Origin: Haliclystus octoradiatus
Taxonomy: Eukaryota; Cnidaria; Staurozoa; Stauromedusae; Haliclystidae
DNA: 64,000 nt
Direction: 5' to 3'
Assembly: GCA_916610825.1 (NCBI GenBank)
Contig: OU744450.1
Coordinates: forward strand, 22,319,338-22,383,337
Numbering within the stretch: position 1 is the stretch's first letter; each line of letters begins with the position of its first letter. Positions 780 through 55,690 of this stretch are shown piece by piece. Made by a program: the position numbers and the translations under genes. The notes under the pieces were generated by a model. That model saw nothing but the letters and a program-made list of their open reading frames with translations, made no database searches and had not been told where the DNA came from.

Positions 780-922
780 TAGAAATTGGCGGGAAAACAA
801 TCCTCGCTTACGTGCAACAACTCAGCCTCTCTCAGTAGTGCCCAGCAACTTTCTGCTTTCATTTTTTGTCAGTTAACTTTTCTTTCGCTTTTTTTCTCAT
901 TTGTTGCAGTTACAGAATAAGA
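780..922 (+). promoter_or_regulatory. Probable PIGC promoter / 5' UTR with E2F-type site
   Basis: A perfect E2F-type motif, TTGGCGGGAAA, lies at 786-796, about 127 bases upstream of the PIGC ATG at 923. A pyrimidine-rich tract ending in TTGTTGCAG at 901-909 looks like a splice acceptor, so a non-coding first exon further upstream is possible. The motif is seen directly; its activity is inferred. Confidence 0.4.
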
Positions 923-3900
923 ATGGAAGTAAAATATGTCAAACCAAAATGGAGAAAAGTGCTTTACATTAATCAAGGTGTTGCTGATAATTATGTTGAT
1001 GATTCATTCCTGGAAGAGATGAGGAAAAATGGTAAACAAACACATTTTAATTTTGTTGTACTTGTAGGCCAGCCAGCCAGCTCCCGAGGCCGCCTTAATT
1101 CAATCTCTCTCTAAACCCGGGATTGGCCTAATCTTTCTTTACTTTCATGTTGTTTTCTGACCTGCCATTGCATTCATACGGCGTTGATGCACTTTAATGA
1201 CATCACCCATGTATACCTTAGATCAGAGACCATCAATACTATAGGCCTATATGGTTGATGTCATATACTGAAAAACTACTGAAATGCACCTTAATTCATT
1301 TCTGTCTCTAATTAGATCCATTAGTGTAATTCATGTCTAAATTCGGTAGCCTATCCACTAAGTATTTATTATGCTTTCAGTAGGTTTTAGAATTTCAAAA
1401 TTTGTGGTGCTATGGTAGGCCTATTGATGATATGATTACAGAAAAGGCCCTTTTACGGGGGTTCTGAATATTCATAGTTCAGTCAAATTTTTAGCAAATA
1501 TTTCATATTTCATTTCGAAATCAAGAAACATTTTAAAATTTGAAGGGATACATTTTTATATTTGAAGATATGAGAACAATTCAAAAATAAGAGAACACTG
1601 TGAAAATGACAATATTTCATATTTTATTTTTATTTTGTCCCAATATTTCATATTTCAAATACCCCTAAAGGGCCTCACAGAATGAACTTGACTTACTTAT
1701 TTTGTATGAATAATTGTGTAAAATAATAAGATTATGGATCTGACAATGTATAACGACAAGTTCGGTGTAGGCCTAACTAGCTGCTTGTGAATGTAATTTT
1801 TTATAAATGAAATCAAAGTTAAATAAATCCAATGATAAGATAATATAAAATAAATACACTGTTAATCAACCGATATAAAGTAAGAAAGTCAATACTTAAA
1901 ATCACTACAGACAGTACCGATAAAACCCTTATTGAGAATAAATGTTCAATTGGTTATAACCGGACCTTCTCAACGTGACCAAAATGTAACTGAGGCGTAA
2001 ACATGCGGTCCGCCTAGATAATATATCACAATCTAAAGGAGGCTATAAAATAGGCTTCACAATTGCGTCTCATAGTAATATAGCGTGTCATAGAAATATA
2101 GTGTGTCATAGAAATATATTTCATGTTATAGAAATATAGCATGTTATAGAAATATAGCGTGTTATAGAAATATAGCATGTCATAGAAATATAGCATGTCA
2201 TAGAAATATAGCATGTCATAGAAATATAGCGTGTTATAGAAATATAGCATGTCATAGAAATATAGCGTGTTATAGAAATATAGCATGTTATAGAAATATA
2301 GCGTGTTATAGAAATATAGCATGTCATAGAAATGTAGCGTTTTATAGAAATATAGCGTGTTATAGAAATATAGCATGTCATAGAAATATAGCATGTCATA
2401 GAAATGTAGCGTTTTATAGAAATATAGCGTGTTATAGAAATATAGCATGTCATAGAAATGTAGCGTTTTATAGAAATATAGCGTGTTATAGAAATATAGC
2501 ATGTCATAGAAATATAGCATGTCATAGAAATGTAGCGTTTTATAGAAATATAGCGTGTTATAGAAATATAGCATGTCATAGAAATATAGCATGTCATAGA
2601 AATGTAGCGTTTTATAGAAATATAGCGTGTTATAGAAATATAGCATGTCATAGAAATGTAGCGTTTTATAGAAATATAGCGTGTTATAGAAATATAGCAT
2701 GTCATAGAAATGTAGCGTTTTATAGAAATATAGCGTGTTATAGAAATATACCACCAATTGAACCATTGATCTGACTTTGGTTTGCTTTTGTAGTGGATGT
2801 GAAGCTCTATACTCTTCCCACTGTAATTTTTGAGTCATTGGCAGTTGTACAACAATTCAGCAGGTAGGAGACTTAATGCACGTAATTTGCGTAAAAAATG
2901 TTAGAACTATTTCCAAGATTGTTAATTTGTTGAAAAAAAGTCATGTCTTAAAGAACTACCTTGGGTGAGGGTGAGTAGGGTTCAACAAAAGTAGGAATCC
3001 TAGATTCTGGAAGGCTAGAGCAAATAAAAAAAAAATATATTTTTATGATTCATTTGTCAAACCTAAACAAAATAATTTAGAAAAAAATGTTGAAATGCAA
3101 AATGCCCGTCTATTCTTTCCCTTTTCCATAGAACTGTTGAAATAGATTGCCCATGCCCATTGTTTAATTTTTCCAAGGGCTCATTGTTTGATTTTCTATA
3201 GAACGGTAGCCTATTGTTTGAGATTTCTAGAGAACGGCCGTTGTATTATCATTTTTCTAGATATTCTAGAGATCGGCTTTAATGACCTCTTTCTAGAGAT
3301 CGCCTTTTCTAGAGATCGACTGGCACTCAAATGCCTCTAGGATTTCAGAAGACGTGCCCTATTGTCGAACTGTGTGGGTGAACAATTTTTTCAGTTAGTG
3401 TTTGGTAAATTGATACATAGGTGTGATGAATTTTCTAAGCAATATCACATTATCACAATTATTTATCTTGAAGTACATTGTGGTACATAATTGAAAGTTA
3501 AATAATAAAAATCATTTAAAATTATATGAAAATGTGACCTATAATAGGCTGCTTTATTCATGGGACCATCTTTCACATTTTTGTGTACATTGTCGAACGT
3601 ATTTTCTTGATGTTTTTGTTTTTCAGTATTTGTATTTTCCTGGCAACGTTTCTATCAGTTGAGAATCAATCGATTTCTCCAGTTGATTTGCTTTTTTATT
3701 CTGCAACTGTTAGTGTCAGCTCGTGTCTTCTTCTATTGACATTGAAGTTATCAAATGGTCAATTGAAATTATCATTCCAACTTTTAACTGAAGGTTTGTA
3801 TTCAAGTATATCCAATACTTAAGCTAGATCTTTAGAACATAAGCATCCCAACCTAATTGCCCTGCTTCAACAATTTATTTGGGATGTGATAATGTTAAAC

Positions 3901-12062: not shown

Positions 12063-12112
12063 ATGCATAACTCTACTTAACTGTATCGAGCTCTCTCTTA
12101 AATGTTTGCATA

Positions 12113-12738
<626 letters not shown>

Positions 12739-16552: not shown

Positions 16553-19500
16553 ATGAAAAAGAAAATCATTTCTATTTTATTTTTTATCAGCAGCATCATA
16601 GTTATTGGAAATTTTAATACTTCGATGCGTACGGACGGTTTTACAATAATTACAAATCAAGGTAGTTATAATAATATAAATTGGAATAGTATGTCATCGT
16701 ATTTTAATGATTTAAATTGCACTGATGGTATAATAAACTCTACATTTGATACACACATAATTGATCAAAGTCATGGAATTAATCTTATTTTGAGAATTAT
16801 TGAACCTAGACTTTATCATAAAGATATATTGCCTAATAACGTTGATATTTGGTTATCTATGACGGATAGCAGTACTGAGAAAGTCATTTTATCATTAGTT
16901 AATGGTTTGGATATAAATTTGATTACAACTCAAACCAGTCAATGTGCTATGGTAAGATATGCAGTTTGTTTTGGAATCTTTGTTACATTTTAATGTTTAT
17001 AAACATGGCTGGTGTACATACAGTATATCTCAATCTTTATATTTCTATTTTGTTTTTACCAATGTTTTTTTTTACAGTATAAGATCAACTCTCATTACAG
17101 TAGTAAAATTATTCTCAGTTAATCTATTTGATATTTTTCTCAAGTTTTCTTCCTTTTCAATAGCAAATGTGACTCAATGTTTGATATATTTTTCAAAGTT
17201 ACCCATTAAAAAGTTACAAACTATAGCTGACTATAGCTGTGTCAGTAACGGAATCTGTTTTATTTTCCACCCAAATTCTTTAAGAGATTTCAACGCTTTT
17301 GCATCTATCGTCAATATTAAAATCATTTATTTATTATCCTATATAAAACCACTTCTAAGCCAATAATAACTGGATTTCTAATACATTTAATTATATCAAA
17401 GTTTTATATATTGGGTTATATGATTGTTAAATTGCATATTTCTTTATTATAAAAATATTCTGAATATTGTTTCCCTATTTTTCTATTAAAATGTTTGATT
17501 TATTGAGAAGCCGGATGATGATAAATTCTTGCAAGTATAGTTTTCTTGTTTCAAAATATATCACCTGTGTTAAGCAAAAATGTTCTTGTTTTAATATGCC
17601 AAACTCGCAAGCGTCTTGCAAGAAAATCTCACACAAGTTCGAAACGCTGAAAGATTGTTTTTGTGCTCAAAATAAGAAAAATGGATCTTCAAAATCAAAA
17701 TAAGAAAAAATCAAATTACATTTTGCTTGCAAGAAACACATTATTTCAGTAGTGCAGCTGCTGCGGATTCTGAAGTTCGCTCTATTTTGTGTTTAACTTC
17801 AAAAAGGTAGTTTGACCTTTATAGATCCATTGTAATTTGTTTCTAACAAAACGGGTTTTATTTATTCATGTATTTACCTATGTCTTGTGCAGAATTGACA
17901 AAAGATCTATTTATAAAGTTAGATATTTGAATTTATTTTGAATTATTGTCAAAATTATTTCTGTTAAAGCAGAAGGCATACTTTTTCAAGGCTTAAATGC
18001 TCTTTGTTTTCAATGTTTTGTCTCTGAGAATTATACTTCGAAATTGTATTTTTTTTTCAGTGCTTATTTATTCATAAAAAGTCATGTATTTGGTCACCGC
18101 AATAGATTATTCGCAAAGCTGTTTTAAATTTGATTGTTTTTTCAATGCTCGACAGTAGCAGCCAAATATGGATAATGAAAGTAATAAAATGGGTCAATTA
18201 AGCAGATCATTGTATGTTTATTAGAATGCAATCTAACCCACATTGTGAAAGCGAATTAAAGGGTCGAGCCCGGGTACCCGGGCTAACTTTTACTAACACA
18301 TGCTTATTAGCGTCATAAGTATAATGGCGCATTCTATGCGTGCCTCGTATTGCACATGCATGATTAATATCTAACCCGGTTTCGACCCCCCTAGTTTGAA
18401 TTCACACAACAACCAACCCAGATCGAGCCCATTTTACAGCACTGTTAACCCCGGGTTTGTTAAATTTAATCTGCCTAAAGTTTGCCTGGGTGAACGTTAG
18501 CCCGTATTCAAAATCTGTAATGTCAAAAGAGCTATAATCAAGAAAATACTTACATGTGAATTCTGACAATTGCCTCAACGCGATAGTAGGCCATTTCCCG
18601 CACCAAATGTAATTTCATATTCTAGGAAAATATATTTTCAATTGTTTACAGTCTTTCCTAATTTGATAATAATCTTCTTCTTTTTCACGCGTGTTCTGAT
18701 TGTAATTTATAGTCAGATATTTGCTATCGCTAGAGTCGTGCTGCAAATAATTTTTTATAAGCAGTGTTCGTATACCATGTTTTCAAAAAGAATTATAAAT
18801 TTTACTACCGTTTAAAACGATCGAAACATTCCCGAATATTCAAAAATGCTGAAACAAACGAGATGCCACTTTTCAATTTGGCATTGTGTTAATTTTGCTC
18901 GTTATACTGCAATTATGACCTGTGATGCATGAATTTGTATACACTTTTTGTTATAAGTACCAGTATATCTTTTGATTGAGGCTCAGTGTACTTAATATTT
19001 TCATGATTTGAGCCTTAATATGTTTTTAACCCGTTCGTAACTCAGAATGTTGTTTCTTTAAATTCACTATTTTATAATATCTATACTCAAGTCTATATGA
19101 TTGTATATATTTAAGATACACGTGTAATTTTCGACAGAATTTCCTCATCTCCTACAGTACAATTTACAATGTACCTGCCTGTTAACAAAATTATATGCTG
19201 TAATAAAGTTCTATTTTTACTGTTAACTGCGTGAATTCTAATGATATTTTGGAACAAAATTAAGCATCGAGATGTTTTTAATTTGTTCTTAAATTTTTAG
19301 TAAAACCCCAATATTGCTATAAAAAGAAAACATTGTTGATATGAATTAGCAATGTGTACTTTTGGATATTACGTATTGTACTTTCTAAAATATCACGAAG
19401 GTTTTCTGCGATCTGATTGGTCGAAAGAGCGTGTATGAAATCCTAGGGTAAAACATGGCTCCGAAAACCGGGAAAAACCGCAAGGATCGAAAAGATTGAT

Positions 19501-22500
19501 CGGTGATAAAATACAGAATTTATAACTTTTTGATAACAATGCAATAAATATCTCAATAATGGCTACGATTTACAAAACGACATTTAGCTCAAGATGTTTA
19601 TATTTATTGAAAAGCGTGGGAATGAGTTATTGGTCGTGTAACATGCAAAATAAAAACACAGAATGAAACGTAAACGTAAGATTTAAATAACAATTACTGC
19701 ATTAATTTGCTAAAGAACTATTGTACCACTTATATTACAGACGTTCTTGTATATGTCTTTCTTTATTCGACAATATCTATCTTGTTGTGGGATTCTCTTC
19801 GCTTGGTTTATGAATTGAAATTGAATTTTAAATTGTGAATTCATGAATTGAAAATTCGCCATCGAATGAGGTTCTGACATTTGTTTTATTTTAGAAAAGG
19901 ATTACCACATACTTGCAAATGTTTGTATTCATATTTACTAAACTCGAAAATGTTGGGAGACACTCAGGAAGCTAATAATCACTCCCTCGGAGCTCGTGAT
20001 TTTTTAGCGCTTCACTCGTGTCTCCCAAAATTTTCTCGTTTAGTAAATATGAATACAAACATTTGCTAGTATGTGGTAACCCTTTAATAACGAAAATGAT
20101 TCGATCAATCTGATCGGTTTATAGAGTTTGACGCCAATTCACCATAGCAAAACTAGGTTCGAAAATACAATCGATCTTACAATTCGAACTTGATATCACA
20201 AATGAGAATATCCAATTTGATCAGTAGTTTTCAAAAACATTTCTTGAGCAAGAAAGTCATGTAAATACTTGTAAAAGTTGTGCTTGTTATAATACAAAGC
20301 AATTGGCGCAAAGTTTTCTATGAACTATTGATATTTGGCGCACGAGAGGCATGTAAGGAGAAAACGAGAAGGCATCAGAAAGTTATGAGCCGCCTCGGCG
20401 AGTAATTTCGCCTTCGAATTTTCTCCTGAAGTGACTCAAGTGCGCCAAATATCAGTAGCTCTTAGAAAACTGTGCGCCAATTGCTTAATATCGTGTTGTT
20501 TATGGAGTTGTGTACTACACTTTTTGATAAGAAAGTGCTTCCTAAGAAAATAGTAATCAATTGACAACTTCCCAACTTCTGATCTACCCGACAGATAAAG
20601 AATTCCAGCTGATTTTAATATATTTGACTTTGAAACTCATTTGTTGGAATTAAATAAATATTGATAGACAACTATCTGGAAACCAAATATGTTGACAATA
20701 TAACTCTACCAAAATTAAATGATTCTTATAAAAAGCATTGTTCGTATGTCCAGGCCTGGAGTGTTTCTTTTATTTCAAAACATTTCATTTACTTTCTCAA
20801 TAATTATTCAATAGTTTTAAAGTTCTCATTAAAGTGAAGCTGCTTAATATAATTTTGAAATGCAAATGAAATATTATAATTAAGTAGTAGACTTGAAATA
20901 TTATAAAATAATTTTCTGCCAATTTGTAAATTAGTTTTGTACAAGATTGAACGTCGAGACACAACAGGTGTGTTTTGCATTTTAATAATAATGGAAATTA
21001 TTTGAAAACATAAGAAACAGTCCAATTCAATGCATTTATTATGCTCGAAAATGAAATGACAACCAAGCAAATACGACCTCATGCGAGCAAATACGACCTA
21101 AAGGCTGATTTCCACTAGGCGAAAATTTCACTGCGGCGAAATGAGCTAATACCCATGCGTAGTGTGGCTTTGAAGCCATGCAGGAACAGATGTGGTAATT
21201 CGCTTCAGCGAAATTTTTAATTGGAACTGTTCCTACTTTTTTGCGATTCGCTTCGGCGAATAAACTTGAAGCCAATGCGAGCATTGCATTGGTGTTGTCA
21301 TGGTATCAGGTCACAGGTGCCATATGGATTAACAAACTGTGGAAATCAACCAGCGAAGGTAGACGCGAATTTTTCGCTGCAGCGAAATTTTCGTCTACTG
21401 GAAACCCGCCTTAAGCCCGGTTTCCACTTGACGAAAAATTTCGCTGCTAAAAAACCGAGTACGCGTGACGTGGCACACAAGTTTGGATCACGCAGGTTTC
21501 GCTGCAATTTTTGCTGAAGCGAAAAAAGTAGTTGGAACTGATCCTACCTTTTTGCGATTCGCTGCAGTGAAAGTGAATCAAAGCAATGTAAATCATCTGA
21601 AAATGATGTTGTCATGACATCTTTAGCAAACAGGATGGCGAGATAAAATTTGTAGCCTGTATTGCTTTGTTGCAATTGTCAATTGTGAACCTCCAGTCAC
21701 CAAGTAACGCAAACAAACACACAGCCTTTCCGCTTCCAGCAAACCAATTGCTTTCCTCGTGTGAGTATCATTCTTTTCAATTTTTGGACCAATTATCATA
21801 TAAAAGTGTTCAAATGTCGAAGGACACATACGAAACGAACGGTAAAAATATTGACTGTCATAATGTTTCATTTCCTTTACGAATAGGTGGAACTCTCCTT
21901 TCTCTTCTCTCTCTTCAAATAATCTCAAACCCAGAATCCGCGTCTTCTTTCTCGGCGAAATTTTTGCTGGTTGATTTCCATTTTAAATTTGTTTAGCGCG
22001 CTAAATTCGACGTGTATGAAAATCCATCATGGCACCATTCAATTTAGAAGTTATATTGCATGCACGGCTGCAAATTATTCAAATGTTTCTGCTCAGAAGA
22101 CGTAGAGTATATGTAGGAAAATACAGTAAACGATTCTGGATTCGGAAATTATTTGGAGAGTAAAGAGAAAGGATAGTTTCATTTACTTGTAAAGGAAATG
22201 AAGCTCATCATCAATGAAGCTCATGAACGACATCGAATATTTTTGCCGTTCTCTTAGTAAATGTGTGCTTCGACATTTGATCATTTGAGATTTAATGATT
22301 GGTTGGTCTAAAATTTGAAAACGGTGGAGATGCTATGGGTTTGTTTGCGTTATTGTCGTTATTTGGTGACTGGAGCTTCGCAATTGACAATTGCAACAAG
22401 GCAATACAGCTGGTTACAAATCTCATCCCGCCATTTGTTGCTGGAGATGTCATAGCAACATCATTTTCAGATGATTTACATTTGTTTGATTCACTTTTCG

Positions 22501-25500
22501 CTGCAGCGAATCGTAAAAAAGTAGTATCAGAAATATCGAAAGCTGCAGCGAAACCTGCGTGGTCCAAGCTTGTGTACAACGTCACACAACGCATGCGTAG
22601 CGAAATTTTTGCTGCGGTGAAGTATTCGTCAAGTGGAAACCGGGCCTTAGTGTAGTGGTTAAGGCATTGAACCTCGGCTTGCAGGGTCTTGGGTTCAATC
22701 CCTGGCAAAATCACTATTGGTTGGCGTCAGAAAGGGAATTCGGACATTAAAACCCGGGGACACCTTCCAAATACACAAACAAAGTAACCAACTCCACCCT
22801 GGCGGTAAAGTGATCTATCCAATAAACTAAAATTACAAAAAATCACTCCATAAATCAAATCCAATTCAATAAATCGAAAAAGTGATTTAATTCAACGTAC
22901 TTCGACTGCACAACAAAACTGTCTCAAACTGTCTCAAATAGATCATCAATTCCACGAAATATTCTTTAGAAATTTAGTTACAGAACTATAAGTTGAACTT
23001 TTTAATATGCTGCCCTGCAATTTCTAGCGTCTATTTTATTTATATGCTTAAGTTAAGCCTGGGATAAAACTTCTGATTTTGTGTCTGATAACAGACAGAC
23101 ACGTACTGGTCTTTCCACTTTCAATATCACGAACCTATCAATCAATGTATGTTCATATTAAATAAATGAGAATGCTTAGATGTTTAGATGTTATCAAATC
23201 AAACTTTGTATCGCTATAATAGCTCCGAGAGATTTTATTAATACAGTATACTTAACTTATTACTTTAAATGTTAGCGTTATTTTGTTGTTATCGAGACAG
23301 TAAAGCTATATATGGTATCTACATGAAAACATTTAATTATTGCAAGCATATTTTGCTTGATTCAAAGTCTGTTTCATTTGTTTCAAGCTAACAATGATAT
23401 ATTTTTTCATTTCGAATTTTCAAAATGTTAAAATTTTTCCAAAATTAACACCCTCCGTCAACTATTTTTAAGGAGTTACCCCTCCTCCGGGTGACATTTC
23501 GCAGCCAAATCATTATTCATAAATCAATAGTAATGCGCTTGGCAATGCCTATATTTGTGTCCATAATTTTCTATTTTTATTTCCAGGTATCAGCTCATGA
23601 ATCCCAAGTAGGCTGCCGAGAAAACTCAGCAAGTTATTTACAATTAATAATAACATTGGTAACATATTTACATCCAATTAATATTCACATTGTCAATACA
23701 GATGATGGTTGTTATAAAAGATTTGGTGATGAATTGATGATTGAATTAATGCGTTTAACAAATGAAGATAATGATCATATTTATAGATCAGAGATACAAC
23801 GTATGGTATTCTCATCATCTAAATTAGATGTGATGCAGTTGAATGAAATAATGTTTACAATCAAAACTAATCGCGCATCAATTGTAATATGTTTGTTCGA
23901 TGCTGTTTTTTACGATGTTATATTTTCTGCTGCAAAAAGATATGGCGTGAATGGTTTTGAACATATTTGGTTAACAATTGATTTTCCAGAACATTCGATA
24001 TTACAAACACCATTTTTACCTGTACAATTTCTTACAACACGTCATTTAAATGCTGAATTAACCAATCATGATGTTGATAATGCAATTGCTTGGGACCTTG
24101 TCAATCAAACTATTTCGTTGTATCCTGGTTGGCTGGGATGCTCAAATAAGACAGAATCGCAGCAAAGGTAATTATAATAATAATAAATTAAAAATTTGTA
24201 ACAAATGACAGCGATAAATACACGGGATTCCACAACGTTTCGCCAAATCATATCTTCATGGCATCATCAGGTATATAAACAAATTAAAAAAAATTACAAA
24301 TATAGAGTTTGAGTTTAATAAGCAAGAATTTATTAAGAAATAATTTAAAAAGATTTATTTTAATGAGTGTAAACTCAGATGCTTATATGCATATGAAATT
24401 CCTCAATGTTGGGTAAAACAGAGCATTATAGAAAAATAAGAGACAAAGCTGAGGCAAAAGCAATTTTCCGTTACTCAGAGTTTGAGAAACGCGTGTTATA
24501 TTGAATTAAGAATGAGATGAAATTACTATTGATAAATCCGAAATTAAACATTTTTTTGCTTAAAGAAGTTTGATAATAAGACAATCGTTATAATAGACGT
24601 AATTTTGTGACGTTTCGTCATTATAGTAATATGACATTTTGAAGCGATTAAAATTAAAAAGATGGAAATTTAAAATACGTGAATATTTATACATGCTTTA
24701 ACTTGGCTAATTCATATTTTAACTTATAGCTATTACAGATACTGTACTATATCTACTATATAAAGTACAATCAAACTCGTCATAGCGACCATTCCAATTA
24801 AGCGGACACTCTTTGTAAGCGACAACGCTTCGGGCCGCCGTACTTTAAAGTACCTAATTATATGCCTTTTGTCTGATGTTGTTTGTACAATTCTCTGATA
24901 TGTCCAGATCTTTGATATCTAATAGATTGAATATTTTATATCGGAATATGTTAAGCCGTGAAATTGAATTGGATTTCGATGTCGAGGAATAATTTGATTT
25001 AAAAATTTTTGGTTTTAATTTTTTTTTCAATGCTGTGTAAATTTGAATATAATATGTTTACATGCACTGAAAGGCAAACATAGATAGTTAATTGCTTAAT
25101 ACCATTTACAAATTATGAACAATTTAAATTATCTAGGCGATGTCTGAACTTAATTGGTAAATTCACAAAATTGTAAGAACTTATTGTAATACAATCAAAC
25201 TCGATTGATATCCCCTTTTCTAATGTCCTACCTTAATTAATTAATATCCCCATATAAAACTGATTTCTATTTTCCACTCTTCATACAAACTCTCATAATC
25301 CTCACTTATGAGGATTAGCTCCGATGGCAGAGCAACCGAACTTCAGATCGGATCATATCTGATCGACCGTGGTTCAAATCCCCCTAAAGTCAACTCAGCC
25401 TTGTCTTTATCTGAAACATCAAATGAGTACCATCTGAGGATGGCGGATGGAATGGTCCAGAGGGAATTGCATTGTGAGTAGCTGCGGCGCATCGTTGCGC

Positions 25501-28500
25501 ATTGACAATCGAGACCTATCTGCCATGAAATCTGTTGAAATTGATCTGCAGTGTCGCGGCTGAGATCAACGAAGAGCGTTTAAAATCATTGCTCTCAGCG
25601 AAAAAAGCCACTCATCTAGAAATAGAGGAGTGGTACGGGTGCCTTCCGTAGGGCGACACAGTCTACATTACTTTATAATCCTCACTTAAAATCCCACCTC
25701 GCTTAATGTCCCACTTTTTATTCGTACCAGAGGGGGGAATATTAAGCAAGGTAGAATTATGCGTGTTTGTATGAAGCATGGAATATAGACATGAGTTTTG
25801 TATGTGGATATTATATAATATAATATGAGGTAAACGCATGTATACGAGAGGGCTCAATGTTTGCTATGACAGAGCATAATATATAATTGAAACAAAAATG
25901 AGGCATTTTCCTTATCTTTGTTTCAATTCTATATGGGGATATTAAGAAAGCTTGACTGCAATATCAATATGTGTATTTAATCTATTTCATAATGTTGCTT
26001 ATCTTAGCATTCATCATGGGAAACACACTCACTGCATTGAACCATTGTCAATGCCATTAGGTATGTATTATCTTAACACCACAAACTCATCATGGTTGAA
26101 GATTTTAGTATGGAATGAAGCAAACGGATTTGCTATTCACAAACAAACCGGTGATTTAATGCGTTCGATCAAACCGACAATGCCTGGAGTCCGTTTACGA
26201 ATTGTAACGGTTGTCGATGCACCGTTTACCATTAGTTTACCGCATTTGTACATCGGTGATAACGATAAACCGTGTCAATACGGATTAATGTGCCGTATGT
26301 ATAATAAAGATTATCATATTAATCAATCGGATTCATCTGAATGGATTATATCATGTTGTGTTGGACATTCAATTGATTTGATACAACTTTTAATGGAGGA
26401 TTTACAATTTCAATCGGATATCTATATTGTTAAAGATGGATATTATGGTGCACAGAAAAATGGTGTTTGGAGTGGTATGGTTGGTGATGTAGAACAAGGT
26501 ATAGCCGATATGGCATTTGCTGGTCTAACAATTAATAAAGAAAGATCAGAAGTTGTTTATTTTAGTGAACCATTTATGAGAGTTGATGTTGGTATCATTA
26601 CTTTATCTATACCACCAGAAGAAAAATTTATTAATTTTCAATTTATTTTACCATTATCTAATGAATTATGGTGGGCTATATTTGCTTCTTTTCTTATTGG
26701 TACTGTTGTTATATATGTATTTGAAAATAGAAATTCACTCTATACTCGATGTACTACGTTATGTGAGAATAATCATATATTTTATTCTTGGCGTGAAGGA
26801 TTTTCTTATTTTTCTGGATTGACATTTCAACGTGATCTTGGTGGGAAGAACCCAAATCATTATGGTGCCCGGGTAGCTGCATTGTCATTTAGTTTTGGTA
26901 TGGTTATTATTATGACAACATATACAGCTGTTCTTACTGCTGTTAAAGTTAGTAATGTAGAACTTAATGATTTCAAAGGACTCAAGGATAGTAGGGTAAG
27001 TGGCCTAATATATATAGTTTCTGACTAAATGTTTAGCTTTGGCATCTTCAATTTGTCTACATGTTTTGTTGAGGTGTGGTACGTGAATAAGAAAGCAAAA
27101 TCAATTTGGTTTAGCCTTCCACCATCTAGAATGGCCCTGGGGGGGGGGGGCACTTCCATACATCGGCTATATTAGACGTGCCATTTTCAAGAGGTGCCTT
27201 ATTTACAGATTCTTGTGAAATTTTACGGTATCAATTTAGAAGACTTTCGAAATGTTTGAACTTTTCTTATGACCGTAAAAACATGAATTTCTAGGGTCTT
27301 AATTCTTACTTGCTGTGAAATTTTACAGTCCTCATCGATTTTTTATAATGGCCCACCCCGTCCAAAAATATCGAAATCCCCCCCCTGGAGAATCGCAGGA
27401 TTCTTGGACCCTGTGGACCCTGTCGATATATATGTCATGGCAAACAGTAAAAGCCATACTTTTTCACATTTTACTAAATTACTGCATTTTCTTATTTTAG
27501 ATGCGTGTACCAACACCTGCTTTCAAAATTGCAACTGTTACTAATACAAGCACAGATAGCTTTTTTCGTGATGTCAATGATGAAGTTCTCCAACGATTAT
27601 ATCATTTCATGCAAGCATATAACGTAAAAAGTACTTCGGATGGTATTGAAAAGATGTTTAAGGGGTAAGTCAGGATTAATATACATGCAAAATGGGAACA
27701 ATATTAAGCCTGGGGAATAACTTTCATTGCACTTTGACAGGGTCGTTCAAATAGAGCTTTGGCAGAATGACCATAAAAAAGTTTCACATAATGAAAAGAT
27801 ACCCTAAATATATTTGAGAACAACATCATGTTGTTCTAAAAATATGAGAGAAAAAGGTCTGTGCTAGATGGAGAGCAGAATATTTGTTTTTGTAAAAATA
27901 CAGTGAAACCTGTATATAACAGCGAGCTATGAGAGATAGATGAATTGACCATTATATGCAGGTGGCCTTTATATACAGGGTTGATTCAATAGAAAATACC
28001 ATTTTAGACATTGCGAGTGTGACCACTATAGACAGGTGGCTGTTATATAGAGGTGACCGCTATAAAAGGTTTGACTGTAAATTGTTTTGATTTTGAAGAT
28101 TGTTTACTAGGTTTCGACCAATCAGAGAAATTGTGTAGTTAAATTGTTTTTCATTTTACAAACAATTTCATAAATTATAGACTTTTTGAAAGAGTTAGAT
28201 ACATTTTGGATATTCTCCAACACGTAGAACATTTTGAAATTAATGAAACAAACGTTGCTTTCGTTTTATTGAGATCGTTGCTGTATTTGAGAACATGGCC
28301 CTTTTTCTATGTTTGCTGTCAATGCCATCAGAAATTCGAAAATCCAAAAATTTATATTGTATTTCTATTTTGTAGTGAACTTCAAGCCTTCATCAATGAT
28401 TACGCATTCTTAAATTATTACATTTCACAACAAAGAGAATGTCGATTATATTTAGTGGGAGAACCAATAGCACAATCAGGTTATGGTGTTGCTATGGCAA

Positions 28501-28883
28501 AAGATTCACCATGGAAACAACAGATATCTGAATCAATCTTATTTTTAAAAGAAAATAGTAAGCTAGAAGGATTGAAACGAAAATGGATACCAAATATATG
28601 TTTGAAAAATTCAACAACATCTGAGGTAACATTAGAAAGTTTACCAATTAGTTATTTTGGTGGACTAATACTGATATTAGGTTTAAGTATAATTGTAACA
28701 TTTATTATATTAATTTTTGAACATATTTATTATCGTTATCATCGACATTTAATTGATCCTATACAAGGAACTATGCAACGAATTGTTACATCGCATAGAC
28801 GTAATGCTGTTTCACTCGAGTTTAAAGAAGAGAACTTTAAAACAGCATCAATGGAAAAACATTTTAATGGTACGTCTTTTTAA
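16553..28883 (+). CDS. NMDA-class ionotropic glutamate receptor subunit, 5 exons, 879 aa
   Basis: Coding exons: 16553-16951, 23587-24167, 26008-26995, 27501-27664, 28376-28883 (stop). Intron phases 0,2,0,2, total 2640 bp. It encodes a tetrameric glutamate-gated cation-channel subunit of the postsynaptic membrane. Order: signal peptide (about 1-25), amino-terminal domain to about 385, S1, M1 (546-565), re-entrant pore loop, M3 (616-639), S2, M4 (803-826), short cytoplasmic tail of about 50. NMDA-class hallmarks are the S1 cysteines 416, 422 and the pair 443-444, plus the S2 pair 733/786. Ligand contacts conserved by alignment to GluN2 are T501, R506, S673, T674 and D719; three others differ (Y472 for His, G499 for Ser, N718 for Tyr). 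The pore-tip Asn is Gln (FQRD, Q601) and the gate reads TYTAVLTAV, not SYTANLAAF. LBD and M4 look closest to GluN2, but family placement is unsettled. A small missed exon in the 6.6-kb intron 1 is possible, though the join is in frame. Confidence 0.94.
18255..18390. repeat. Imperfect inverted repeat with GGGTCGA..CCCGG arms
   Basis: AAAGGGTCGAGCCCGG on the left mirrors CCGGTTTCGACCCCC on the right, and a perfect GAGCCCGGGTACCCGGGCT-type palindrome sits in the left arm. Probably a small MITE in intron 1 of the receptor gene. Confidence 0.5.
19378..20092 (+). repeat. 715-bp dispersed repeat, copy 1, ending in a hairpin
   Basis: Co-linear with 57845-58600 from TATCACGAAGGTTTTCT to GTGGTAACCCTTTA, same orientation, clearly diverged. 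The last 190 bp (19894-20086) form a long hairpin whose arms share TTTGTATTCATATTTACTAA, GGGAGACAC and AGCGCTTCAC-type sequence. No coding potential; probably a non-autonomous DNA element. NMDA-receptor intron 1. Confidence 0.8.
20296..20487. mobile_element. Foldback MITE with GCAATTGGCGCA termini
   Basis: The left arm (AAGCAATTGGCGCAAAGTTT.., ATATTTGGCGCAC) mirrors the right arm (GTGCGCCAAATAT.., ACTGTGCGCCAATTGCTTA), about 50 bp each with few mismatches. The centre has no open frame. NMDA-receptor intron 1. Confidence 0.85.
21102..21411. mobile_element. Harbinger-type MITE A, 310 bp
   Basis: Terminal inverted repeats AGGCTGATTTCCACTAGGCG and (minus strand) AGGCGGGTTTCCAGTAGACG, both followed by AAAATTTC. 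Flanked on both sides by TAA (21099-21101 and 21412-21414), fitting the 3-bp TWA duplication of PIF/Harbinger elements. GCGAAATTTT-type subterminal repeats fill the interior. It abuts element B directly. Confidence 0.8.
21623..21990 (-). pseudogene. PIF/Harbinger transposase (HARBI1-like) N-terminal fragment
   Basis: The minus-strand frame contains GEFHLFVKEMKHYDSQYFYR, FRMCPSTFEHFYMIIGPKI, DTHTRKAI and ERLCVCLRYLVTGG, the usual order of the N-terminal part of HARBI1-like nucleases (EFH.., F.YFRM...F..L...I, I..ERL...LR.LATG). The catalytic DDE core is absent because the element breaks off, so no active nuclease is encoded. Confidence 0.8.
22120..22290 (+). pseudogene. Second, inverted copy of the Harbinger transposase start
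   Basis: On the plus strand, SGFGNYLESKEKG, a stop, then FHLLVKEMKL and MCASTFDHL mirror the minus-strand fragment at 21623-21990. Stops and a frame break show it is dead. Confidence 0.7.
22650..22812 (+). mobile_element. SINE-B, tRNA-derived, copy 1
   Basis: Has a tRNA-like head (TAGTGTAGTGGTTAAGGC A-box region, GGTTCAATCCC B box, about normal spacing) followed by a body with AATTCGGACATTAAAAC, CACCTTCCAAATACACAAAC and AGTAACCAACTCCACC. Homologous to 39818-39984. It starts right at the edge of Harbinger element B. Confidence 0.75.
24367..24500. repeat. Dispersed repeat with MITE terminus, copy 1
   Basis: GTGTAAACTCAG..ATGAAA..TCAATGTTGGGTAAAACAGAGCAT matches 28952-29017. It then runs into AAGAGACAAAGCTGAGGCAA..GTTACTCAGAGTTTGAGAAACGCG, the terminus of the foldback element at 29049-29195. 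Only one terminus is present. NMDA-receptor intron 2. Confidence 0.65.
24765..24850. repeat. Single mariner-like MITE end
   Basis: CAATCAAACTCGTCATAGCGACC resembles the termini of the elements at 25192-25958 and 27901-28077. The matching other end was not found. Confidence 0.45.
25192..25958. mobile_element. Mariner-like MITE interrupted by a SINE
   Basis: The left end CAATCAAACTCGATTGATAT and the right end (minus strand) CAGTCAAGCTTTCTTAATAT are inverted, both running on into TCCCC, with TA before the left end. The interior matches 44228-44332 (TTCATACAAACTCTCAT, CCCACCT(C/T)GCTTAAT(G/A)TCCCA). Removing the nested SINE and one duplication leaves about 387 bp. The right end lies 49 bp before NMDA-receptor exon 3. 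Confidence 0.8.
25309..25674 (+). mobile_element. SINE-A, tRNA-derived, 366 bp, with 14-bp target duplication
   Basis: tRNA-like head with TTAGCTCCGATGGCAGAGC (A box) and GTGGTTCAAATCC (B box), then a non-tRNA body of about 290 bp shared with 4740-5103 (such as CATCTGAGGATGGCGGATGG and AGAGGAGTGGTACGGGTGCC). Flanked by exact direct repeats ATAATCCTCACTTA at 25295-25308 and 25675-25688. No A-rich tail, so retroposition was probably by a LINE that recognises the 3' body. Confidence 0.93.
27901..28077. mobile_element. Tc1/mariner-type MITE, 177 bp
   Basis: Ends CAGTGAAACCTGTATATAAC and (minus strand) CAGTCAAACCTTTTATAGCG are inverted, with TA on both sides (27899-27900, 28078-28079), the target duplication of Tc1/mariner elements. 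The interior has repeated GTGACC-CTATA-CAGGTGGC modules. NMDA-receptor intron 4. Confidence 0.85.
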
Positions 28884-31539: not shown

Positions 31540-33400
31540 TTCAGTGATACACAGCTATATTACGTTACTTCAACTCCAAGAATCCACTTTCTAGTTAACT
31601 GACGTGCAAATTGTAAATAGTAGCAATAATAATAATGGTAATGTAATAATAATGGGATCATTCAACGTCAGTTCTTGCTACGTGGTCAATGAAAATAATC
31701 AAAGCATTTATAGAATGAGAATCAAAAATGATACATGCTAGATTATGCTACCTTACTTCACGAATCGTCCTTCTAGTTAACTTAGATGCAACCTGAAGCA
31801 CCATAACCTTGCATATCTTATTTTTGTCTCTAATTTTACTATAAAATCTAAAGTGAAGATAATAAAATATAATATCCTATGTGATGGTAATTGGAATCTC
31901 TCAATTATTGATATTATGAAGTCTAATAAATTATAATAATAGTAATAATAATAATAATGGCAAAATAATAATAATAATGGGATCATTCCACATCAGTTCT
32001 TGGTACATGGTCAATGAAAATAATCAAAGCATTTATAGAATGAGAATCAAAAATGATACATGCTAGATTATGCTACCTTACTTCACGAATCGTCCTTCTA
32101 GTTAACTTAGATGCAACCTGAAGCACCATAACCTTGCAGATCTTATTTTTGTCTGTAATTTTACTATAAAATCTAAAGTGAAGATAATAAAATATAATAT
32201 CCTATGTGATGGTCATTGGAATCTCTCAATTATTGATATTATGAAGTCTAATAAATTATAATAATAGTAATAATAATAATAATGGCAAAATAATAATAAT
32301 AATGGGATCATTCCACATCAGTTCTTGGTACATGGTCAATGAAAATAATCAAAGCATTTATAGAATGAGAATCAAAAATGATACATGCTAGATTATGTTA
32401 CGTTACTTCAAGAATCGTCCTTCTAGTTAACTTAGGTGAAACTTGAAGCACCATAATCTAGCAAATCATATTTTTGCCTCCAATTAACTATAAAAACTAA
32501 AGTCAAGTTAATAAAATATAACATCCTATGTGATTGTCGTTGGAATCTCTCAATTATTGATAATATGAAGTCTAATATAAATTATAATAATAAGAGTAAA
32601 ATATTAATAGTAATATAATAATAATGGTATCATTCTACGTCAGTTCTTCGTACGTGGTCAAGAAAATAATCAAAGCATTTATAGAATGAGAATCAAAAAT
32701 GATACATGCTAGATTATGTTACGTTACTTCAAGAATCGTCCTTCTAGTTAACTTAGGTGAAACTTGAAGCACCATAATCTAGCAAATCATATTTTTGCCT
32801 CCAATTAACTATAAAAACTAAAGTCAAGTTAATAAAATATAACATCCTATGTGATTGTCGTTGGAATCTCTCAATTATTGATAATATGAAGTCTAATATA
32901 AATTATAATAATAAGAGTAAAATATTAATAGTAATATAATAATAATGGGATCGTTCCACATCAGTTCTTCGTACGTGGTCAAGAAAATAATCAAAGCATT
33001 TATAGAATGAGAATCAAAAATGATACATGCTATATTACGTTACGTTACTTCAAGAATCGTCCTTCTAGTTAACTTAGATGCAACCTGAAGCACCATGATC
33101 TAGCATATCTTATTTTTGTCTCTAATTTTACTGTAAAATCTAAAGTGAAGTTAATAAATATAATATCCTATGTGATGGTCGTTGGAATCTCTCAAATATT
33201 GATATTATGAAGTCTAATATAAATTCTAATAATAATAATAGTGCCGTGGTATTATAATAATAATGGGATCGTTCCACATCAGTTTTTGGTACGTGATCAA
33301 TGAAATAATCAAAGCATTTTGAGAATGAGAGTCAAAAGACACATGCTAGATAATATTACTTCAAGAATCACCCTTGAAGTTTGATGCTGGCTTGGGATGA
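31540..33400. repeat. Tandem array of 318-324-bp units, about six copies
   Basis: Unit starts (GGATC(A/G)TTCCACATCAG) fall at 31657, 31981, 32305, 32628, 32949 and 33267, so periods are 324, 324, 323, 321 and 318. A partial unit precedes and another ends the array. Each unit contains CATTTATAGAATGAGAATCA, CTTCTAGTTAACTTAG and ATCCTATGTGATGGTC, and opens with a short AAT/ATA run. Units 2 and 3 are nearly identical, as are 4 and 5, so duplication happened in more than one step. No open frame. Confidence 0.95.
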
Positions 33401-35284: not shown

Positions 35285-38200
35285 TTAATCATCTGATCTA
35301 AATCGTGGAGATTGTAAAAAGATCAAAGCAAAATTTAAACCTATTATAATAAGAAATACAAAAAGAAAAAATCGATCTAAAACACGTGCAGCTTTACGCC
35401 ATTCTTCCATACGTTTTTTAGCCATAGCTTTTTCTAATTTACTCATTGCTCGAGCCACAATACCAAATTCATTATTTATTTCAGAGTCACGAGGTGATTC
35501 CAATCGATTTCTAACAATATCAGCAAATCTTGGACATCGTGGTGTTAATGGTATTCTTTCATTAGTTGAACCATTACCAGAACTGTTTTTATCATTTTGT
35601 TGACCATCACCAGACAATGCTGTTACACGTAAAATAGCAGGATCTTCATTTTCTTTATCACAATGAAAACGAAAACATAATAATGGTCCAAGTATTTTGA
35701 ATAATAAATATTTTAACCAATTTGGCATTCTACCTTCTTTACGATGATATAACATTAATACAACTGTTGTTACTACTAATGATAAACCAGTTGCAACTAT
35801 TGTTATAAAATAATATCTTGCCATATATGGGAAATCATATTGTGGCATAATTGAACTTGTTAACTGTTGAAAAACAGTAACAGATAATAATATTGTTATA
35901 CTTAAACTGACACGTTCGCCAGATTCTGGTGGTAATATAAAACCAAGTAATGCTAATGACGATAATAATGCTGATGGAATAATTAAATTCAACGTATAAC
36001 TAAATGCAACACGACGTAATGCTAATTCAACTGTTATATCAACAAATGGTTGTGGACAACATTGATAAAATAATTCATTTCTTGTTGCATTTAAATGACG
36101 TAATTCCCATCCACCATTTGGTACGTAATAATCATTTTGTTCAAATTTTCCACCAACAAATCGCATATCAATCTTTGATACATCAAATGACCATGAACCA
36201 AATTTTAATTTACAATTTTGATCATCAAATGGAAAATAGCTGACATCTATTTTACATATACTCGTATAAATAACTTGATTCATCCATGTATGGTCACCGT
36301 TACTCTTGATTGACACTTTCTGTTTGTATATATCAACACTTCCCAGACCTGAATCTGTCCCAACACTGAAATACAAACAAACACGTTGTATAACTTTTCA
36401 GTTCTTGCATTTAAACCTTATTCTTTTCAGACACACTATTATTTGCCAATCACTACTGGCACCAAAACCATTTCATGGTATTTCCACATTTTTATATTGT
36501 AATTCTGAAGATTTTCATGGTTTTCAAACTTTGTCGTGGCTTAAAAAATTATGATTTTCACTTCTTTACATTTCCATGGTGTTTTCATGACACCTTCACG
36601 GTACTTTTACGGTTTTGGTGTTGGCATTGGATGTCGCATTTAATATCTATTGTATATATATATAGCAGCAGACAAGCATTACTTGTTTCTGGCCATAATA
36701 GCCGTCATCAGTATTGCTCAGTGAACAAGGGATTGACTTCACCTGTTGTATATATTTACCATTTTAACTGACATGTGAAATTACATAAACAGACAGACAG
36801 ACATAAGGGTTAAGAAAAGCGAAAATTAACTCTATAGACTTACTTGTTATATAATACAATATCTGGTACCCAGACCTTTGCTGCTGCCACATGGATACTA
36901 TCGACATTTCCATAATGGCTTGCATTCCATACCATCCGTGGATTATTCCAATACTACAGGACATCAATAATACCAATAAACACCAATATAATATAAAGGA
37001 AAGTTGTAACATGCACACTGATATCAAGTAAATTGATATTTCTTAATAGTTAGCTATTTTATGTTTATTGGCTGCGAGCAGACTGGGTTGATATTCTTTT
37101 GCAATCGGCAAATACATGTGGACGCATACGTGATTCTACATCGATCTCAACAGTCACGATCAACTCAACAGGCACTTTCATAAGTTTGTAAAATGTACAA
37201 GTCTTACAAGGATAGTTTTCTGCAGCAAGCTGCACATAAGTACGCCTAGGTTTTGTGCAGTACTTTCACCCGGTGATTGATAAGAAATGGGTCTGTAATC
37301 TGCATGGTCTATATTTAATACGGTGCATAATCTATCAAGGTACGGCGAGTAACTTTAGCTTCAACCCAAAGTCAATGGCACGGCTGTAACAAAAACAATA
37401 GGGTCAAATGAAGGTAATATGAAGGTCATTTGTTATTGCAGTTGTCGATTTCTTTTCAAGTCAATAACAGATTTAATATAAAGCCCCTGCTACATGAACA
37501 TTTGTTCTACACGAGCTCAACGAGCTCAACAATGTTGAGCTGTGTAGAGCACTTGTTGTTCATTTAGCCACCTCACCTAAACTGCTCAATATCCGCTCTA
37601 CAATGTTGAGCTCATGTAGAGCCCTTATAGAGCAAATGTTTAGAAATTGTTGCGTTCATTTAGCCGTGGCTTAAGCATGTTTGGAGCTTATTGTCAGTTT
37701 CTTAAGCTTATGTTTTTATGCTTTCCCACAAGAGAAACATCTTTAATGAACAGCTTCAGCAGCAGCTTCAATGAACATCATGTAACCCTTCGTATTGCCA
37801 TTAAAATAGATAGATTGTTTACCTGGTTAACCCAAAGATATGTCTTGATGTATTGATCCCGCTCACTCTGTTTGAGATAAAAAATCATTCATATGATAAA
37901 TATCAGTAGCTATTCTGTATATGCAATATAGAATGGGTGGAAAATCTATTGTATAATAATGATAGGTTAGATATTTACTTCATTTGAGAATTGTTCGAGG
38001 CAAAATCTAAAGATTTTAAGAAATATTTTACTTGAAATAATGTGTTCTTCGTTCATTTTGAGAAAATATTGTCTAATTTAAGCATAAATATTTTCCGTGA
38101 TAGATATTGATATCAATGCAAATGATTTTTGAATCTGCAGTGTAGCAGTGCTGTTTTCCTCTGTTACAATAACTCCGTGTATCTGGTTATCATTGGATAG

Positions 38201-49500: not shown

Positions 49501-50827
49501 TTTCAATTAGTAATCTTAAATTGATGTGATAAAAACAAATATATTCAAACAAAATTTGTGTTATTATCCATATAATATAATAATAATATATATATTTGAC
49601 TCTCAAACTGTTAAAAATACATGAAAATTATTTTCAATGTTTGAGGTAGACAACACCTCACTAAAAATTATAATTTACAAGAGTAACAGTAAGTATTTTT
49701 GTAATTTAATATTATTTAGCATTAACTAAAAGTTCAATATAGTAGTTATTAAAACATAGTACTTGAACAGTCTCCTTCGTAAAGATAAAAGGGTGGGATA
49801 TGCTGTAAGAATTGAAAGAATGTATAGAAGTTATATATGCCTATGTCCAGCTATCCGTGACTTAGAGATATGCAAATGCGCTATTATATGGATTAAGGAG
49901 GGAATCTAGTACGGCTGCTCATTGTCAATCTTCGCCTGAGATCAGTATTATGTTTCCATCTTTATAATACGAATAATACTGTAAATTAAATCCCATTTCT
50001 CAAGAAATAGGAGAGTTCTGTATAAAACACAGAAATGAAAATGTTATAATAGATAAATATCTTCATTTGGAATATTTTTGAGCAAAATAATAAGATTTTA
50101 AGAAAATTTACATTGAGCTATATACTCAAAACCTTCGAGAGACATTGGAAGTTATATGAGAGTGCTTAGAGTTATATATTTTATTCTGGAGATGTCATTT
50201 AATCAGGTATTGGTCCCATTGTAATGACGTGGCCACTATTCTCGTCTTGATTGGACGCATTATCGAGGAGCTGTATTTGCATGTTTACATCTTGAATTTG
50301 TGTATTGTATGCCAACCCAACCATAAATATATGAATAATTAAATAATGATATTTATAATTATTGTTACTTTAAATTTATAAAGTATTCTCTGCTTACTTT
50401 TTAAACTTATTAGAGAATACTTTGTTTGGCTTTACATTTTCATTTCATTGCATTTGATAATAATAGAGTGATAGCGACATTTGAGAACACACAATATGCA
50501 ATAAACAATTATCAATTGTATAAATATAGAAAAATATTGTTCATACATTTATAATTTTAAAGGTATCATGAAGAAATTTTTTTCATTTTATATATTTTAA
50601 ATCGTATTTATTAGATGAATGAATAAACCTTACATTTTGTATGTTTGTATATGTACTTGGACTATTAGAACACAAACAACGGTCTTTTTTGGTGACCACT
50701 TACGAAAAATCCAAAAGAGAGGAATTATTTCTAGAATGGATTATTTGATTGATCACATATGAGATATCTATTTTGTTTCCCTGAGCTGCACACCTAATTA
50801 AGTTAACAGACTGTTCAAGAGATGCTG
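46594..50827. other. Long AT-rich intergenic stretch; no gene seen
   Basis: Apart from the minisatellite at 48374-48510 I see only short AT-rich sequence, no family-recognisable protein frame, no tRNA and no long inverted repeat. Confidence 0.5.
48374..48510. repeat. 31-bp minisatellite, four units
   Basis: Four units of TGCAAGAATATTTTACTTAA followed by TTCAAAGTCAA, with a few substitutions (TTC for TTT, ACTC for ATTC, GAT for AAT). The fourth unit decays into TGCAAGAAAGTC. Confidence 0.9.
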
Positions 50828-53160: not shown

Positions 53161-54028
<868 letters not shown>

Positions 54029-55690
54029 TCAAATTGGAGAACTTGCTATATAACTATTATCATCATACCGCATCTTTTTTTATCAATAATCTGATTAGTG
54101 ATATATATCCCAAAACTCGATAGAATATTATCAATTTAGAAAACATCTCCAAGAGAATAGCTGCTGATCGAACAGTCAACAGATAACAAAACACTTCAAC
54201 ATCATGGAGGTCCCTTTAGGGGTTTTTGAAATATGAAATATTAGGACCCCCTAATAGAGCCTCGTTATGATTTTTGGTATCAATAAGTTTTATCAACTTA
54301 TTTGGCAACCGCTTGCATGTCACAAGCAATAATTCTGAAAGCCATGCGTCTCACCCAATCAATTCAAGACTTATTTTATCAGTTTATAGCTATTAGTGAA
54401 ACCCCAAACGAATGGAAAAAGGCATGGTCAGATCTGTGTTTAAAAGAATGGGTCCACAGAGAAAACAAAACTATAGGTCAATGGGGCCAATTGTTATGCT
54501 AATGCGTATTAGCATAATTAGACTAATATCAACTTCCCCTTTTTTCCCCTGTGTGTTACCCTTTATTTTATTAATTACATTTGACTCCGTTTTGAAATCT
54601 CTACGAGAGTGGATGCTATTTTATCACTCTCAATCAAGTTACCCTCATAACACGATAGCAATATTGACCCATTTATACAAGGCTTTCGAAAAGATCATTT
54701 CCGTCTCATTTCGAGATTCCCTGACAAAATGTTTGGTTTTCTCGAAAGACATGCATCAATGCATCCAAGCTATGGATACAGGGAAATCTACATCAGTTGT
54801 CTTTCATGACCTTTCAAAAACATCTGATGTTGTGCACCGTCAAATACTGTTGGCTAATATTTAAGCATAAAGCTATATATGTCCACTGCGATGTGATCTC
54901 ATAAAAATCTCTCTCACAGATCAGATCCAATCCTTAAAAATTGACGGCCATCAGTCGTTACCTTTCGAAACAAATTGAGGTGTTCCCTAAGGGTCCATTA
55001 CGGGACACTCCTATTCAACATTTACGTTGCCAACATGGCACACCTAACTATAGAGTCCTCATTTCTCCGGTATGCAGATGATATAGCATTAATATATATC
55101 TTTCTGGAACGAACACTGACACTACAACCGCAACTCTAAGGGCTCTAAACAAAAACTTGGAAAAAGTAACTCTATGGTTTGAGAAAAACTATCTTCTATT
55201 TAACCCACGCAAGACACAATTCATGATAGTGCACAATCAACACTCTACACAACTACCACCATCAACAAGAATACTAGTAAACAACGCTCAAATAGTATGA
55301 TCATCACAAATGAAGCTACACTAGATCAAGCTTTAACGATGAAGACACCTTTGCACCTTTGCGCATGTGCCTCTGTAACGCAAACCTTGCCCATTGCCAA
55401 TTGAGACACTATATCGATCATGCATTAATGAAAAACTTTCACATCTGCTGTACAAGCAATGCGTTCGACTTTATTTAGAGAACTGCATCACTTTTCTAAC
55501 CTCTGTTCCGTCTACAAATCTATCCAACCTTGAACCAAAAACATCACCACCACACTAAAATATGCCATGAAAATTTTCAAAGCATCAAGAAAAGACCATC
55601 AAACGACCATTATTCTTCATTCTCGTCACCCCATTAATGCTTTGTGACTAATTATGACTATTAAGTGACATTGTATTTTTTTGCTACAGG
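54029..55690 (+). pseudogene. Second decayed non-LTR retrotransposon RT region
   Basis: Plus-strand pieces in different frames: ETPNEWKKA followed by VRSVFKR (usual PdeWK.A.V.P.FK), LYKAFEKIISVSFRDSLTK, FHDLSKTSDVVHRQILLANI (usual FLDL.KAFD.V.H..LL), RYADDIALI with an intact YADD box near 55070, and LEKVTLWFEKNYLLFNPRKT. Frame breaks and stops separate them. An RT of the CR1/Jockey superfamily is clear; the clade is not. A MITE end at 54207-54246 interrupts the 5' part. Confidence 0.8.
54207..54246. repeat. End of the GAGGCCCTTT MITE family
   Basis: TCCCTTTAGGGGTTTTTGAA then ATATGAAATATT matches the minus-strand right end of the element at 1444-1677. Confidence 0.6.

Follow-up and report, generated by a model that had tools for sequence, protein, structure and literature searches.

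An NMDA-type receptor gene of Haliclystus octoradiatus with a rewritten M3 gate and selectivity filter, one of six paralogues

Results

Gene structure and reality of the gate motif

The window, that is, the whole stretch of 64,000 nucleotides analysed here, covers C6:22319338-22383337 of the Haliclystus octoradiatus assembly (261,861,806 bases, 33 contigs). The mitochondrial COX1 frame has 8 TGA codons inside its match, and AGR where Arg is expected, in keeping with a cnidarian code. On the plus strand of the window, at positions 16553-28883, lies a five-exon gene whose spliced translation yields 879 amino acids, with GT-AG introns and a single terminal stop (Table 1). The protein matches Lig_chan-Glu_bd (PF10613, 1e-20), Lig_chan (PF00060, 1.6e-11) and SBP_bac_3 (1.2e-9) in Pfam, and these matches together with an alignment over LBD and TMD place its domains in the order S1-M1-M2-M3-S2-M4, as for an ionotropic glutamate receptor. 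Exons 1 and 2 are joined to the receptor gene on frame and position alone; residues 1-388 gave no Pfam match at E 0.1 and the amino-terminal part no PDB match up to E 10, and the single-sequence structure model of exon 2 has a pLDDT of 30, too low for use.

A first-pass annotation had read intact frame and splice sites and, at residues 631-639, the M3 motif TYTAVLTAV, and splicing of the five exons confirms both, with canonical sites throughout and no internal stop. The span assigned at the time, 26872-26940, covers the M3 helix and ends inside residue 639. The two exchanges then placed in the activation gate, Asn to Val and Ala to Thr, are real; with the two that were passed over in silence, four of the nine residues differ from SYTANLAAF (S1T, N5V, A7T and F9V). 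Also overlooked was the selectivity filter, which is likewise rewritten (FQRD vs FNNS in GluN2B).

Table 1. Features of the window and of related loci in the genome. Positions without prefix are those of the window; others are given by contig.
Feature	Position	Strand	Observation
Exon 1	16553-16951	+	Residues 1-133: start codon, signal-like N-terminus, presumed amino-terminal domain begins; open frame, GT donor, phase 0
Exon 2	23587-24167	+	Residues 134 to ~327: remainder of presumed amino-terminal domain; in-frame AG/GT sites
Exon 3	26008-26995	+	S1 half of LBD, M1, pore loop M2, M3; matching open exon in five paralogues
Ligand contacts Thr501, Arg506	26528-26545	+	Alignment; equivalents of GluA2 T480, R485
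Pore tip Phe-Gln-Arg-Asp-Leu-Gly-Gly, residues 600-606	26825-26845	+	Gln at N site, Arg at N+1; gap-free against GluN2B FNN, GluN3A FGR
M3 gate TYTAVLTAV, residues 631-639	26918-26944	+	Replaces SYTANLAAF; spliced translation and alignment
Exon 4	27501-27664	+	S2 begins; side-chain contacts Thr672-Ser673-Thr674 at 27546-27554
Exon 5	28376-28883	+	Remaining S2, M4, short C-terminal tail, stop; Asp719 at 28398-28400
Window gene			Pore tip TFQRDLGG; gate TYTAVLTAV
Paralogue	C5:2.65 Mb		Pore tip TFQRDIGG; gate TYTAVLTAN
Paralogue	C1:19.497 Mb (19497276-19497941)		Pore tip TFQRDLGG; gate AYIAALTAT
Paralogue	C1:19.509 Mb (19509027-19509830)		Pore tip TFQRCIGG; gate AYTASLTAS
Paralogue	C4:32.75 Mb		Pore tip AFQRDIGG; gate AYTAALTAT
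Paralogue	C2:7.96 Mb		Pore tip AFQRDIGG; gate AYTAALTAT
Seventh NMDA-type gene (L020/L031)	C5:4081131-4081850	-	Gate VYSANLVAF; pore tip FTCGEIVD; Ser for the acidic ligand anchor
Lig_chan places L011-L015	C5:27.97, C5:13.85, C1:25.02, C7:22.15, C5:21.15 Mb		K+-channel-like YGD filter
Frame with GPI2/PIG-C match	839-1111	+	1.7e-9
Trinucleotide array TAT	12111-12738		209 copies; open in several frames
321-bp tandem repeat	31628-33359		5.4 copies, 92% matches; downstream of receptor gene
Neighbouring Cys-loop ligand-gated channel gene	35288-36397	-	Read as nicotinic-like; Neur_chan_LBD 3.6e-26, Neur_chan_memb 1.9e-27
Trinucleotide array TAA	45115-46593		491 copies; open in several frames
Broken frames	50785-52842, 55082-55297	+	No Pfam match at 0.01; presumably non-LTR retrotransposon fragments, by resemblance
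Trinucleotide array ATT	53162-54027		289 copies; open in several frames
306-bp tandem duplication	56459-57065		Perfect, two copies

Chance or sequencing error is not credible as the source of the gate motif, because a return to SYTANLAAF takes at least five base changes, two of these in the Val codon, the assembly has a QV of 56.6 (PMC9975415, partial text), and the rewrite is common to five paralogues with open exon-3 frames. RNA editing back to SYTANLAAF was considered and rejected: A-to-I editing is unable to restore Asn 5, the Val-5 codon being GTT and thus without an A, and the furthest it could go would be to recode Thr 7 (ACT) as Ala. That the gene is decaying or unexpressed, or the product of an assembly error, is very improbable. 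The modest BUSCO completeness of the assembly (81%; PMC9975415, partial text) would leave room for such a fault, but the open frame of 879 codons (~7e-32 in random sequence composed like the window), the canonical splice sites and the QV speak against it, as do the five other copies with a like motif in open exon-3 frames. Judged from its sequence, the gene is plausibly functional and specialised.

Membership of the NMDA subfamily

A PDB search returned 373 distinct sequences at E <=0.001, and among the best 60 of the 373 GluN2B comes first (8e-60), with GluN3A at 4e-59, in line with the NMDA-class assignment made at first pass. The joint alignment gives identities of 134/434 to GluN2B, 127/433 to GluN2A, 132/432 to mammalian GluN1 and to GluN3A (30.6% each over LBD and TMD), 88/367 to GluA2 and 94/367 to GluK2, hence ~29-31% to NMDA receptors vs 24-26% to AMPA/kainate receptors, and two trees set the window protein with GluN1/2/3, apart from AMPA/kainate receptors, in a 100/100 split. 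M2-M3 aligns without gap to GluN1, GluN2A, GluN2B and GluN3A, and the M3 register is as clear as had been claimed. Extra cysteines in LBD loop 1, including a CC pair, are a hallmark of the NMDA subfamily; residues C416, C422, C443 and C444 of the window protein are invariant across the six paralogues described below, and the CC pair aligns with GluN1/2/3. Two loop-1 cysteines are also described in the available part of PMC6307864, whose inclusion rule keeps sequences with at least four SYTANLAAF residues and so takes in the window gate, which retains 5/9. From alignment and tree, the protein is a member of the NMDA subfamily at about equal distance from the three vertebrate classes. The identity to GluN1, GluN2B and GluN3A is 31% each, and GluN2, the comparison from which the first-pass annotation started, is therefore no special baseline.

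The window protein is excluded from GluN1; a separate Haliclystus GluN1, canonical in gate and pore, is present at C2:29.88 Mb and joins mammalian GluN1 at 99.6/100. GluN1 has the NMDA-type CC pair in common with the window protein but carries the pocket S/S/V. Where GluN2 is defined by Asn at both N and N+1, the window protein has Gln and Arg; of the Gly (N) and Arg (N+1) that define GluN3, the Arg is present and the N site is Gln. GluN2A and GluN2B resemble the window protein in the top PDB match, in Thr at pocket position 655 and in the T..R..D contacts, but have pore tip FNN and gate SYTANLAAF and form no sister group with it in either tree. GluN3A shares Thr 1, Val 9 and Arg at N+1, but has Asn 5, Ala 7, Gly at the N site and the pocket S/S/A; a grouping with GluN3A receives UFBoot 75 with the query alone and 0.6/43 (SH-aLRT/UFBoot) with the paralogues added, and is not recovered once exon 4 is added. 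The reading as a plain GluN2 or GluN3 orthologue finds no support in either tree.

As a baseline for the gate, SYTANLAAF is too narrow. The GluN3A row of PDB 8usw, which we take to be the rat protein, has FGRT as its pore tip and TYTANLAAV as its gate, so S1T, F9V and Arg at N+1 were already known in an NMDA subunit. In the Haliclystus genome, too, the gate begins with Thr (TYTANLAAF) in two receptors read as AMPA/kainate-like. Plant GLR3.4 (PDB 7lzh), of a distant family and compared over the M3 stretch alone, reads SYTASLTSI and is like the window protein in lacking Asn at position 5, where it has Ser, and in carrying Thr at position 7. Of seven outside receptors compared, GluN1, GluN2B, GluN3A and GLR3.4 do not have Val at position 5, and GluN2A, GluA2 and GluK2 are not known to have it.

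A clade of six paralogues

The gene is not a lone one, a point missed at first pass, and belongs to a set of six paralogues with like gates. The genome search with Pfam PF00060 gave at least 15 places, and that with exon 3 at least 10 matches. The 15 PF00060 places were read as two AMPA/kainate-like receptors (L001, L002), two GluN1 exons (L004, L005), six NMDA-type loci including the window, and five loci with a K+-channel-like filter; the exon-3 search adds another NMDA-type gene on C2. No canonical GluN2 or GluN3 is among these at least 15 places or at least 10 matches. The rewrite recurs in five paralogues of the window gene, spread over four other chromosomes. Position 5 reads V, V, A, S, A, A across the six genes (Asn in 0/6), while Thr 7, the Lurcher Ala at position 8 and the pore tip FQR..GG are present in 6/6. 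Exon-3 frames are open in 5/5 paralogues, and in each of the six other NMDA-type loci examined a GT donor comes after one and the same post-M3 residue. Exon-4 candidates were found in all six of these loci (best-scoring length 164 nt in five, 146 nt in one) by a search that imposed the length class modulo 3. The two clade members on C1 lie ~11 kb apart on the same strand.

In trees of 14 sequences, which have long branches and exclusively vertebrate outside references, and in which the paralogues enter as translated exon pieces and L001, L002 and the K+-type loci are left out, the six genes form a clade supported at 98.8/100 (97.9/100 with exon 4 added). The clade is split from the GluN1 pair, and so sits on the GluN2/3 side of the tree, with a support of 94.7/87 (92.7/89 with exon 4), and is joined with the C5:4.08 Mb gene at 75.1/77 (85.4/80 with exon 4); the pairing of the window gene with the C5:2.65 Mb copy is weak (52-54/69). 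Taken together, the six sequences suggest that a different gate has become established in evolution. It is conceivable, although we hold the full statement only tentatively, that all seven non-GluN1 NMDA-type genes found depart from the canonical gate, six of them via a coupled exchange at positions 5 and 7 combined with a Gln-Arg filter, that this exchange parallels GLR3.4 and is mutually compensating, and that its closest single equivalents are disease-associated changes of human NMDA and AMPA receptors.

Constraint on the pore

Over 353 gap-free columns of the six paralogues, divided into five regions, M2-M3 is the most conserved, with a mean pairwise identity of 0.473 vs 0.368 elsewhere, a difference reached by 48/10000 column permutations and 22/352 circular shifts. 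In 14 of the 15 pairs the identity over M2-M3 lies above the overall value, the exception being the C1 tandem pair, and 15 of the 66 M2-M3 columns are invariant, among them F600, Q601, R602, G605, G606, Y632, A634, L636, T637 and A638. Such conservation of M2-M3 within the clade favours a pore that continues to be used.

Of 45 residues invariant across six reference receptors, the window protein retains 34, and the losses amount to 3/19 in S1, 2/11 in the M3-S2 linker plus S2, and 4/9 in M3 (611-645; W621, F624, N635 and A637 lost, 5/9 kept). Whether the pore has decayed preferentially, as against the LBD, was examined. With sites conserved against five references, 25/30 are kept in the LBD and 6/10 in the pore (p 0.19); across pools the p values range over 0.11-0.44 (six pools, five references) and 0.006-0.21 (four pools, three NMDA references), and the GluN3A control shows the same tendency (10/16, p 0.31; 12/25, p 0.06). 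These values do not establish that losses are concentrated in the pore; within the clade, conservation is higher in the pore.

GluN3 and delta receptors offer the likeness for a regulatory or poorly conducting subunit, in which the pore would be altered because the main task is to bind ligand and to damp or traffic receptors that contain GluN1. The Arg in the pore tip and the larger share of invariant residues lost from M3 than from S1 or from linker and S2 would both suit such a role, but the superior conservation of M2-M3 would be unexpected if conduction had been abandoned, and we consider this role unlikely.

Ligand pocket

Aligned with known receptors, the window copy has the ligand anchors T501, R506, T/S/T at the GluA2 653-655 positions, and D719. 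Under the rule given in section 7 of PMC6307864 (partial text), Thr at 655 points to glutamate, and Thr at 653 has precedent in ctenophores; the T/S/T pocket therefore suggests glutamate as the ligand of the window copy. The C5:2.65 Mb copy carries S/A/F. In the other four, T501 is replaced by Asp, the pockets read G/P/A, G/A/A, G/A/S and G/P/A, and one has Ser for D719. On the aligned sequences, the pockets are diversified across the clade and the pore is retained.

The clade could be a cnidarian counterpart of the arthropod IRs, a set of NMDA-derived chemosensory receptors with pockets diversified for outside chemicals and a gate tuned accordingly. Asp for Thr501 together with non-standard 653-655 residues in 4/6 copies, the S/A/F of the C5:2.65 Mb copy and the close spacing of the C1 pair are consistent with an expansion of this kind; the standard glutamate-type pocket kept in the window copy argues against it, and we rate it as rather improbable.

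Gate and filter positions in published mutants

Neurodevelopmental disease in humans has been associated with single exchanges at these gate positions. According to PMC10973091 (partial text), the SYTANLAAF gate is largely invariant among glutamate receptors; the same paper is the source of the values that follow for human variants at these positions, in which open probability and deactivation time are columns assigned by our reading of a table whose column heads are absent. At position 5, GluN1-N650I shifts the glutamate EC50 from 3.5 to 0.037 uM, with 1753 vs 44 ms (read as deactivation time) and 0.14 vs 0.19 (read as open probability); GluN1-N650K with GluN2A has 0.46 uM, GluN2A-N648S 1.3 uM, and GluN2B-N649S and N649T both 0.10 vs 1.2 uM, the corresponding values read as open probability being 0.050 vs 0.19, 0.013 vs 0.19, and 0.017 and 0.016 vs 0.033 (PMC10973091, partial text). 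Position 7 is less uniform: GluN1-A652T has 4.0 uM and 0.12 (read as open probability) with GluN2A, and a doubled potency, 0.61 vs 1.2 uM, with GluN2B, while GluN2A-A650S, at 2.8 uM, goes in the opposite direction with 0.54 vs 0.19 (read as open probability). At position 9 function is cut, strongly in GluN2A-F652V (0.0018, read as open probability), and for GluN2B-F653V the value is not determined (PMC10973091, partial text). The position-9 effect on GluN2A current, not measurable in GluN2B, and the lowered position-5 values in the column read as open probability would both fit the regulatory subunit considered above. The single-mutant evidence is mixed, in that the position-5 and position-7 mutants do not all act in opposite directions, and it concerns single changes in mammalian receptors; no published test of a double change at positions 5 and 7 was found in the literature searched.

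A leak channel, its gate partly open without ligand as in Lurcher, could draw on the position-5 mutants of GluN1, GluN2A and GluN2B listed in PMC10973091 (partial text), each of which raises potency, by ~3- to 95-fold. But the Lurcher alanine is retained in 6/6 copies, and the position-7 Thr of GluA3-A653T acts towards closure: the changed residue faces the conduction path, and the exchange stabilises the closed state (PMC5639461, partial text). The same mutation eliminates kainate-evoked current (PMC6626132, partial text). The leak current suggested at first pass is thus not the best guess, and we consider it very unlikely.

As regards the filter, the available part of PMC2974739 ties the Gly/Arg of GluN3 at N/N+1 to absent Mg2+ block, lets low Ca2+ permeability track the N-site Gly and not the N+1 Arg (the window N site being Gln), and cites a lowering of both Mg2+ block and Ca2+ permeability when the N site of GluN1 is Gln.

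Discussion

Based on the evidence collected here, the gene is understood, with a confidence slightly above even, as encoding a working NMDA-subfamily subunit of the GluN2/GluN3 side that combines a rewritten, balanced gate with a filter showing little Mg2+ block. The subunit would pair with the Haliclystus GluN1, and glutamate would open the resulting channel. Loss of Asn 5 may confer higher agonist sensitivity and slower closing, Thr 7 could hold the gate shut at rest and oppose opening, and the two changes would in that way balance each other. The Gln/Arg filter is expected to give little Mg2+ block and reduced Ca2+ entry; as it should weaken the Mg2+ block, coincidence detection would be weakened too. 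A balanced, Mg2+-insensitive channel is accordingly our leading guess, placed above a leak channel.

Comparable receptors already described are the NMDA-Cnidaria and NMDA2/3 classes (Ramos-Vicente 2018, PMC6307864, partial text), cnidarian NMDA-subfamily paralogues outside GluN1, of which NMDA-Cnidaria often lose pocket residues. Judged from description alone, these classes are unlike the present clade in that gate residues 2, 4 and 5 are the best conserved there, Lambda and some Phi receptors being the sole exceptions named in the available part of PMC6307864. The same part describes a cnidarian NMDA expansion and holds no description of a clade without Asn at gate position 5. None of the strings TYTAVLTAV, TYTANLAAV and YTAVLTA occurs in the literature text searched, a result of little weight since figures lie outside that text. 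A natural clade with a fixed alternative gate would show which combinations are tolerated by evolution, and it bears on the use of NMDA-type receptors in early-branching animals.

Other receptor-like loci

The five Lig_chan places with a YGD filter (L011-L015) may be K+-type glutamate receptors, presumably like GluR0, or plain K+ channels. All five fragments pass the Ion_trans_2 cut-off and two of the five the Lig_chan cut-off; L011 has the filter TVGYGDKTPKS, and L012 an M3 of the form FTATITTML.
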